Shown one piece after another: positions 31,683 to 33,412 of a stretch of 64,000 nucleotides of DNA. Within the stretch, counting starts at the first letter, position 1. Every line of letters begins with the position of its first letter. The notes beneath the pieces are model-generated. The model was not told the origin of the DNA and did no database searches. It saw only the letters and a list, made by a program, of their open reading frames with translations. The DNA comes from Azospira restricta (GTDB taxonomy: Bacteria > Pseudomonadota > Gammaproteobacteria > Burkholderiales > Rhodocyclaceae): assembly GCF_016858125.1 (NCBI RefSeq), contig NZ_CP064781.1:1807501-1871500 (forward strand), in the 5' to 3' direction. A program made the translations under genes and the position numbers.

Positions 31683-32147
31683 TCAGGCCGAGTCGATGAT
31701 GCGCCGGGGCGCGGCCTGGGTGGCCTGGCCGTCGGCGCCGTAGAGATCCTGTCGTTGCGATGCGGCGAGCAGGGTTTCGAGGGCCTGCGCGTTGTTGTGC
31801 ATGCGCAGCCGGATCAGTTCGCCGTTGACCCGGTTGAGCTCCCTGGCTTCGGCGGCGAGCGCCTGCAGCTTCTGCCACTGCTGGCGGACGTTGCGGTCGC
31901 CGGGGTTTTTCGCCAGCCAGGCGTCGATGCCCGGGCGGTCGGCGGCGAAGCCGGCGCGGGCGAGTTCGCCGTTGCGGGCCGCGGTCAGGGGTGCGAGCTG
32001 CTGCACCGTCGCGGTCTTGCGGTCGACCAGCGCGGGCAGTGCGTCGGCGCTACCGGTCTTGAGGACTTCCTGTTCTTCCTTGAGCAGGGCGACGAAGGCC
32101 GACACCACGTCGGCTTCCGCCGCGATGACGTCGGCCAGGGCAGGCAT
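31683..32147 (-). CDS. flgN: FlgN, export chaperone for FlgK and FlgL
   Basis: FlgN binds the hook-filament junction proteins FlgK and FlgL before export. The 154-residue protein is almost wholly helical, with LLKEEQEVLKTGSADALPAL and LVDRKTATVQQLA at the start and the conserved ELNRVNGELIRLRMHNNAQA near the end, as usual for the family. It follows flgM by 11 bases, so the two are co-transcribed. Confidence 0.9.
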   Translation of the reverse strand: MPALADVIAAEADVVSAFVALLKEEQEVLKTGSADALPALVDRKTATVQQLAPLTAARNGELARAGFAADRPGIDAWLAKNPGDRNVRQQWQKLQALAAEARELNRVNGELIRLRMHNNAQALETLLAASQRQDLYGADGQATQAAPRRIIDSA

Positions 32148-32158
32148 GGGCGGGCGGT

Positions 32159-32449
32159 TCAGGCCTTGCGCTGCGAGTTGAGCAGGTCGCGCGCGGTGGC
32201 GATCAGGCCGTCGGCGATCGCCTCGGCGTTGATCTGGAAGCGCCCTTCGGCGATGGCCTGCTTGATCTCGGCGATGCGCGCACCGTCGACCGGGGCGCCG
32301 CTGCTGGCGCCGGCGAGCTGCGCCGACGCCGTGCTGATCTTCACCTCGGCCGCAGGGGCGTCTGCGCGCGCGCCGGCCGATTCCGCCTTGGGGCGGCTGC
32401 CGCTGACGCTGCCGGAACCTACCGGCTTGAAATTGCTGTCGATTTTCAC
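32159..32449 (-). CDS. flgM: anti-sigma-28 factor FlgM
   Basis: FlgM binds FliA and is exported once the hook is finished, releasing late gene expression. The 96-residue protein starts with GTG (MKIDSNFKPVGSG), has a disordered middle rich in Ser/Ala/Gly, and ends with the FliA-binding helices (VDGARIAEIKQAIAEGRFQI, then NAEAIADGLIATARDLL). The GTG is preceded by AGGATCACATC. A sigma-28 promoter lies 32 bases upstream, so FliA drives its own inhibitor. Confidence 0.95.
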   Translation of the reverse strand: MKIDSNFKPVGSGSVSGSRPKAESAGARADAPAAEVKISTASAQLAGASSGAPVDGARIAEIKQAIAEGRFQINAEAIADGLIATARDLLNSQRKA

Positions 32450-32480
32450 GATGTGATCCTTGCGCGGGTTTTCAAGGGAA

Positions 32481-32507
32481 GTAACGGCATCATCGGCAAA
32501 AACTTTA
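32481..32507 (-). promoter_or_regulatory. sigma-28 (FliA) promoter of flgM
   Basis: Read on the - strand: TAAA (32507-32504), exactly 15 bases, then GCCGTTAC (32488-32481). The consensus is TAAA-N15-GCCGATAA, so six of eight -10 bases match. A second GCCGATGA octamer lies inside the spacer at the wrong distance. The -10 box ends 31 bases before the flgM GTG. Confidence 0.7.
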
Positions 32508-32572
32508 GCAGAAAGTGCTGCATTTCCTTCCGGTCGGGATTCTAGCCCGAGCCGGGGTGTCGCGGTGCGGCG

Positions 32573-32719
32573 TCAGGGCGCACCCCAAGGGCACTTCTTC
32601 GCAGAGCGCGAAGCGCTCTGCTCAGGGCGTACCCCAGGAGTACTTCCTCGCGATGCGCAGCGCGCATCGCTCAGGGCGCACCCCAAGAGTACTTCTTCGC
32701 AGAGCGCAAAGCGCTCTGC
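32573..32719 (-). repeat. three tandem 49-bp repeats, each with a 9-bp hairpin, between flgA and flgM
   Basis: Units at 32573-32621, 32622-32670 and 32671-32719 are each 49 bases and directly abut; a 9-base start of a fourth unit overlaps the flgA stop. On the - strand each unit begins with a stem-loop and ends with CGCCCTGA, the same bases as the flgA 3' end. The stem is GCAGAGCGC/GCGCTCTGC in units 1 and 3, and GCGATGCGC/GCGCATCGC in unit 2. All three changed positions are matched on the other arm, so pairing is kept. The loop is three bases. Confidence 0.9.
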
Positions 32720-33412
32720 TCAGGGCGCGATCTCGATGATGCCGCCGGGGCGCGCGATGCCGCTGACCGTCTGCCCGCTGGCCGTGCGGGCGCGGGCGAC
32801 CTGGCCGTCGGCGGCGTTGTTGAGCGCCTTGCCTTCGTTGCTGACGGCGAAGCCGGGGCCCTTCGAGATCAGGCGCACGTCCTGCCCCTGCTGGACGACG
32901 AAGGGCGCGATCAGCATGTCGCTGCGCAGCGGCTGGCCGCCGCCGAGGCCGTTCTTCAGGGTCTTGCCGACCGCCTGCTCGCGCTCGGTGAGGATGCCCG
33001 TCGGCAGCGCCGTCAGGTCGCCGCTGCGCAGCGCGAGGTCGCCGGCGTCGAGCGGCTGGCCGGGGTTGAGGGCGCGGGCGGTGACCACGTAGTTGCCGCT
33101 GACGCGGACCTGAACCGGCACGTAGACCGTCCAGCTGGCCGGGCCGAGGCAGCGCACGCCGACCGTCGCCTTGCCCCACAGCCGCGTGCCCGGCGGCGTA
33201 AACGGCTCGTGCGCGGAGCAGGGCGCGAGCTGGGTGCGTGGGTCGAGCTGGCCGACGCTGACGTCCACCTTGCCGGGCAGGCCCCGCGTCTGTGTCTGCA
33301 GGTACTGCTCGACGGTGGCGGCGAGCAGTTCGCGCGCTGTCGCCGGCGGGCTGGTCAGCGTCGCCGTGGCGGCGAGCAGCGCGGCGGCGATGAGGAGGCG
33401 GGGTCCGTTCAT
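32720..33412 (-). CDS. flgA: FlgA, chaperone for flagellar P-ring assembly
   Basis: FlgA is a periplasmic protein that helps FlgI form the P ring. The start at 33412 gives the signal peptide MNGPRLLIAAALLAATATL (cleavage after ATA); the longer open frame would lack one. The mature part has the SAF domain region (LNPGQPLDAGDLALRSGDLT, LPTGILTEREQAVGKTLKN) and a C-terminal part ending ARPGGIIEIAP. At about 230 residues it is of normal size. It is divergent from flgB, and the tandem repeats begin directly at its stop codon. Confidence 0.93.
   Translation of the reverse strand: MNGPRLLIAAALLAATATLTSPPATARELLAATVEQYLQTQTRGLPGKVDVSVGQLDPRTQLAPCSAHEPFTPPGTRLWGKATVGVRCLGPASWTVYVPVQVRVSGNYVVTARALNPGQPLDAGDLALRSGDLTALPTGILTEREQAVGKTLKNGLGGGQPLRSDMLIAPFVVQQGQDVRLISKGPGFAVSNEGKALNNAADGQVARARTASGQTVSGIARPGGIIEIAP

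Follow-up and report, generated by a model that had tools for sequence, protein, structure and literature searches.

Three tandem copies of a hairpin-bearing unit lie between flgA and flgM in the 64,000-nucleotide stretch of Azospira restricta DNA analysed here (the window), raising the question of whether they act on these two genes or belong to something more widely spread. A first-pass annotation had described three contiguous 49-base units, each with a 9-bp stem and a 3-base loop, filling the gap between the genes. Coordinates bear out the units and their hairpins (array span 32573-32727; TRF score 217) and place the array in the gap, but it does not fill it, ~123 bp with a sigma-28-type promoter remaining before flgM. 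On the flgA strand each unit is composed of a hairpin with a variable stem (HP1), a linker, a conserved and G-U-rich hairpin (HP2), and a copy of the flgA end, CGCCCTGA, in the following arrangement:

32720..33412, minus strand: flgA, the host gene (ORF; tblastn finds 37 relatives in Rhodocyclaceae and others)
32720..32727, minus strand: last 8 nt of flgA, CGCCCTGA, with stop TGA; the target duplicated in every unit
32671..32719, minus strand: unit 1, adjoining flgA (covariance-model match of 69.1 bits at G000:C1:1840172-1840219)
32699-32719, 32693-32698, 32678-32692 and 32671-32677, minus strand: HP1, linker GAAGAA, HP2 and gene-end copy GCCCTGA of unit 1
32622..32670, minus strand: unit 2 (covariance-model match of 69.9 bits)
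32650-32670, 32644-32649, 32629-32643 and 32622-32628, minus strand: HP1 (a different, fully compensated stem), linker, HP2 and gene-end copy of unit 2
32573..32621, minus strand: unit 3 (covariance-model match of 66.3 bits)
32601-32621, 32595-32600, 32580-32594 and 32573-32579, minus strand: HP1, linker, HP2 and gene-end copy of unit 3
32481..32507, minus strand: sigma-28-type promoter of flgM, TAAAGTTT-N11-GCCGTTAC, outside the repeat (sequence motif)
32159..32449, minus strand: flgM, the downstream gene (ORF)

Folding of the flgA-flgM array

Read in the flgA sense, the end of flgA is thus followed by three repetitions of a 21-nt HP1, GAAGAA or GAGGAA, HP2 (GTACTC-TTG-GGGTGC) and GCCCTGA, and the 8 nt common to the units, TCAGGGCG at 32720-32727, are those of the flgA end. 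HP1 forms a 9-bp stem with a 3-nt loop in each unit, and the three positions changed in the middle stem are all compensated on the opposite arm, as the annotation had noted. HP2 pairs completely on the flgA-sense strand only. A free energy of -94.2 kcal/mol is computed for the flgA-strand RNA of the array, shuffled sequences giving -66.2 +/- 3.9 (z = -7.1), and the transcript of this strand folds better than that of the opposite one.

A genome-wide family with covarying stems

The possibility that the unit occurs nowhere else fell away on searching the whole genome and its relatives. A covariance model, built from 34 units and leaving only its weakest few matches doubtful, finds ~100 units in 63 arrays across the 3.98-Mb genome, and BLAST with the flgA array alone already reaches 38 places. 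Single units make up 37 of these arrays, the others being double (14), triple (10) or quadruple (2), and all multi-unit arrays run strictly head to tail. Among congeners the repeat is carried by G002 and G003, both copy-rich, by G004 and G005 with few copies, and by G006 with about one, and it is missing (zero copies) from G001. A few copies occur in other Rhodocyclaceae genera, and a unit of the same plan is found in another bacterial family (L258 in G285). There, far outside the genus, L258/L263 hold two units of the form CGCCCTGA - hairpin GGACCAACGGAGTTGGTTC - GAGGAAGTACTCTTGGGGTGC - GCCCTGA, adjoining a masked stretch. Rfam gave no match over the repeats at the gathering score, plasmid and phage records held nothing matching the flgA array, and viral contigs nothing matching the repeat core. 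The open-access literature yielded no description of the repeat, most subscription papers lying outside that search.

Pairing was compared over 125 distinct units fitted to the covariance model, a MAFFT alignment (A1) giving the same picture. In HP1, 96.9% of cells are paired, with 195 two-sided changes affecting 9 of the 9 pairs, while slid partners reach at most 62% and shuffles likewise come nowhere near 96.9%. With ~100 copies and covariation of this strength, the suggestion of selection on structure or of descent from a structured mobile repeat is upheld. HP1 is nearly unique to each locus (72 distinct sequences among 85), and the linker and HP2 are conserved. Identical HP1 sequences are shared by 11 of 47 pairs within arrays versus 4 of 3523 between arrays and, since identity is concentrated within arrays, these grow partly by tandem duplication; mixed-HP1 arrays, that at flgA being an example, suggest re-insertion or conversion besides. 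G-U pairs outnumber A-C mismatches both in HP1 (21 vs 8) and in HP2 (182 vs 9, an excess owed partly to shared ancestry), a balance that favours the sense strand, whether RNA or single-stranded DNA, as the one that folds.

Several related arrangements were encountered. A variant, GGGGCCCATGGCTCAAGT(ACTCCTGGGG), replaces HP1 at L015 (G005), L105 (G030) and L142 (G000), that is, in three genomes of two genera, and could mark an older or different subtype. An HP1-core unit lies inside a larger interspersed repeat ending CTTTCTTTTGGCGAAGCAAAAGAAAGT at L093, L094, L095 and L102 (G057, G159, G124). Without HP1, the HP2 core GGAAGTACYCYTGGGGTGC turns up at L226 (G000:C1:2413767), L252, L253, L267 and L270 and at L255-L281 in G060, mostly after CGCCCCG(A/C)AG and inside other repeats, where it sits at the apex of dRS3-like GTCATTCCCGCG..GCGGGAATCCAG hairpins and also in a different G060 repeat. 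HP2-only matches at 2413765 and 3911025 were considered as ends of an autonomous element and rejected, these cores lying in another repeat or in intergenic DNA.

Placement behind stop codons

An in-frame TGA, closing an ORF with the GC3 signature of coding sequence, immediately precedes at least 51 of the 63 arrays (52 on admitting an ORF of 79 codons); this count and the following ones are approximate, as gene calls were made by a simple GC3 method. Stop-adjoining arrays always lie on the sense strand of the gene and always follow TGA, which is preceded by C in 50 of 51 cases, while 155 control gene ends include 106 with TGA and 72 with CTGA (46%), an excess of CTGA at arrays with p = 6e-16. 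The sequence target is not confined to stops: G(N)1-2CTGA sites in sampled DNA number 189 between genes vs 92 at stops, and against this ratio the arrays, 51 at stops vs at most 12 elsewhere, are strongly skewed (p = 3e-12). The preference for stops exceeds what a sequence target and neutral intergenic survival would give and, therefore, selection or a link with transcription or translation must also act. Array-bearing gene ends are co-directional with the next gene in 21 cases and convergent in 20, controls giving 103:52 (p = 0.10).

Along the chromosome, arrays appear concentrated near the contig ends; dnaA lies at 672 kb, and clustering related to the origin was rejected, the distance to dnaA being uniform and the arrays lacking strand bias (33 of 63 leading-sense). 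The array at G000:C1:458471 has a 6S RNA gene nearby (L007, 31-210).

Duplication of the gene end and empty sites

The first unit of an array ends in the same 6-8 nt as the gene that it follows. The suffix shared by gene end and first unit averages 7.24 nt, against 5.83 +/- 0.16 after permutation (0 of 20,000 as high), and the ten genes whose ends differ from GCCTGA (GCACTGA, GCCCTGA, GACTGA, GACCTGA) all have unit ends to match. The copy starts at the G after the final C of HP2, its length of 6-8 nt varying with the target. The ending that the annotation had read in each flgA unit is thus a general rule of the genome-wide family and not a peculiarity of flgA.

Orthologous sites were found empty. 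Queried with joined flanks, G003 reads GCCGACTGA-AGGAGAA where G000 reads GCCGACTGA-(47 nt ending CGACTGA)-CGGAGAA. Similarly, G005 reads CCGCACTGA, with GCACTGA and no unit, where the G000 orthologue holds three units, the first two ending in GCACTGA and the last diverged. Empty relatives also exist for the L124, L129, L132 and relA loci. At flgA itself the array is missing in five congeners that have the gene, a single native CCCTGA end being read in G001 (GCGCCCTGA), G002 (ACGCCCTGA) and G003 (CCCCCTGA), and it is also missing from every further flgA locus inspected, in Rhodocyclaceae and others. The flgA array consequently arrived in this lineage. Of the two origins offered by the annotation, insertion at the flgA stop accords with these empty sites, and spread of the element from flgA finds no support, flgA being one of 63 sites and its array lineage-specific. 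Since empty orthologous sites hold the target once, the gene end was there first and was copied on insertion, apparently as a target-site duplication.

By its identical flgA end G003 corresponds to the MAG JACPEH01, and the host belongs to the Rhodocyclaceae, at no great distance from Accumulibacter. The stop of a relA-like gene is occupied in five species (L144 in G000, L228 in G003, L211 in G002, L205 in G004 and L207 in G005), with five HP1 stems that are all different and all paired, and it is empty in G001. Some insertions are old, as the relA and L132 loci are occupied in orthologues. In the middle of L105 (G030), a lysS-like reading frame seems to run on through tandem core units whose gene-end copy is GCGCCCCGAA, possibly acquiring a new C-terminal tail.

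A probable mobile repeat aimed at gene ends

The comparisons above demonstrate the family, its position and orientation, the gene-end duplication, the empty sites, the growth of arrays and the conservation of pairing. We consider, with a probability of about 0.7, that they reflect a structured mobile repeat, non-autonomous, whose insertion 3' of CTGA stops duplicates the gene end and is followed by tandem growth; we infer that the folded strand is recognised by an enzyme which cuts behind CTGA. The flgA array would then be a single location among those occupied, throughout the genus, by a family of non-autonomous mobile repeats ~41 nt long, each copy folding into two hairpins when read in the sense of its host gene. 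A candidate enzyme of some other type than those searched for would recognise the folded strand and cleave 3' of CTGA; insertion would take place exactly behind the CTGA whose TGA is the host stop codon, and the far side would receive a second copy of the 6-8 nt that close the gene (G..CTGA). Since every copy ends in the same target, the array could lengthen head to tail, either through re-insertion or through slippage or recombination between identical gene-end copies. Placement behind the stop would leave the protein intact, the resulting 3'-UTR hairpins being at least tolerated and possibly useful for mRNA 3' ends.

Against such mobility stands the outcome of the searches of the own genome for a mover, Y1/RAYT transposase or reverse transcriptase. 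The complete own genome contains no PF01797 (Y1/RAYT), and G002 and G003 (88% complete) gave none either, an E. coli control being positive. PF00078 (RVT_1) was not found in G000, G002, G004 or G005; it is present in G003 and in G001, the latter devoid of repeat copies, and does not track copy number. The unit ends, GCGATG.. and ..GGGTGC, show no visible terminal inverted repeats. The age of some insertions (relA, L132) and the part of the stop preference that sequence target and neutral survival leave over weigh on the same side. A duplication length varying over 6-8 nt is unusual for DDE transposases, and lagging-strand Y1 insertion might be expected to give a replication-strand bias, of which the arrays show none. 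Mobility aimed at stop codons that does without a RAYT, a reverse transcriptase and terminal inverted repeats would amount either to an undescribed insertion chemistry or to a replication-based process coupled to gene ends, a proposal that we put forward tentatively.

Competing explanations

One alternative, plausible although we would not bet on it, is that the units are functional 3'-UTR RNA elements, protecting mRNA 3' ends or insulating the next gene, that are selected at stops, mobility having merely supplied them. Their sense orientation behind stops, the favouring of stops over intergenic sites, the excess of G-U over A-C and the pairing kept in 97% of cells agree with such a role. However, close relatives lack the array at the same gene, no terminator-like tail is present, the HP2 G-U pairs partly reflect shared ancestry, and folding needed for mobility would account for the pairing equally. 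A 3'-UTR role may add to retention at stops and is compatible with mobility, so the readings set out here overlap and their confidences may total more than one.

The main rival to the action of a putative enzyme, somewhat doubtful in our estimation, is that template switching during replication spreads the unit without a transposase. A nascent strand would stall at a gene end, its CTGA would pair with the CTGA of an array, one unit would be copied, and return to the gene end at CG/G microhomology would leave that end copied twice, intrastrand switching at HP1 keeping the palindrome perfect. Such a process fits (i) the variable length of the duplication and its start at the G beside the final C of HP2, (ii) HP1 stems that are nearly unique per locus yet paired, and (iii) an own genome without Y1 transposase or reverse transcriptase. 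It leaves unexplained the strong preference for stops over other intergenic CTGA sites, and neither strand nor replication bias is seen.

Movement as a REP/BIME family by a RAYT transposase (IS200/IS605-type Y1) is improbable and already largely refuted. The likeness to REPs, BIMEs and REPINs lies in short extragenic palindromes, ~100 copies, arrays and a fixed tetranucleotide beside the hairpin (PMC2817692, PMC3733652, PMC3116915), at least 51 of the 63 arrays standing directly behind genes, and four BIMEs have taken up the end of the rayt gene beside them (PMC2817692). On the contrary, the tag here is CTGA, which precedes HP1 in practically all first units, instead of GTAG/CGTC; the two hairpins are dissimilar; units are only head to tail, with none of the inverted or alternating orientation of BIMEs; arrays are placed at stops; PF01797 is missing from the complete own genome and from copy-rich relatives; and the gene end is duplicated, whereas IS200/IS605 elements make no duplication (PMC2817692).

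Also improbable is the attenuator that the annotation had proposed, an array of intrinsic terminators uncoupling flgM from flgA. Strong hairpins do lie between two co-directional genes, but a search for G+C-rich hairpins with a U-tract gave 0 matches in 32100-33000, and arrays are as frequent at convergent ends as within possible operons. Moreover, five congeners and the relatives of several other insertion sites are array-less, and flgM has its own conserved promoter, as the annotation had read, the sigma-28-type motif recurring upstream of most flgM orthologues, which lack the array. Because this promoter is conserved independently of an array that is lineage-specific, the array is not needed for flgM expression. 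Finally, local tandem duplication confined to flgA, consistent with the head-to-tail structure, is refuted by the ~100 units elsewhere in the genome and the many in congeners.

Relation to other known repeats

The units share traits with further small repeats as well. Staphylococcal STAR elements are likewise interspersed intergenic direct repeats with copy number variable per locus; their consensus, T(G/A/T)TGTTG(G/T)GGCCC(C/A), is unrelated to the units when compared by eye, and stop placement and gene-end copies are not described in the part of the source consulted (PMC3532100). MITEs and other small non-autonomous elements are also tiny and non-coding and duplicate their target on insertion, as the gene-end copies and empty sites indicate here, but the present units have no visible TIRs, a duplication of variable length (6-8 nt) and no parent transposon found (PMC2229807). 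The TAACTGA repeats of Beggiatoaceae resemble them as CTGA-containing direct repeats between genes at many loci, and differ in being heptamers, mostly just upstream of start codons, without conserved-hairpin units (PMC4679880). The family has traits common to REPs, STARs and MITEs, yet defining features of each are absent or not evident. What sets it apart among small mobile palindromic repeats is that, at the stop codon, the end of the host gene is copied.

Significance

Small palindromic repeats are common in bacteria, and their spread is mostly unexplained except for the RAYT-linked REPs. In the present family each site keeps readable marks, namely the exact stop position, the target copy, the empty orthologous sites and the head-to-tail growth, and the insertion chemistry is therefore testable by comparison of strains. 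Its covariation, moreover, does not have to indicate an RNA regulator, a warning to those who seek RNAs by structure. About 50 genes of this bacterium carry, right behind the stop codon, a folded repeat together with a copy of their own last letters, resembling a mobile element aimed at gene ends.
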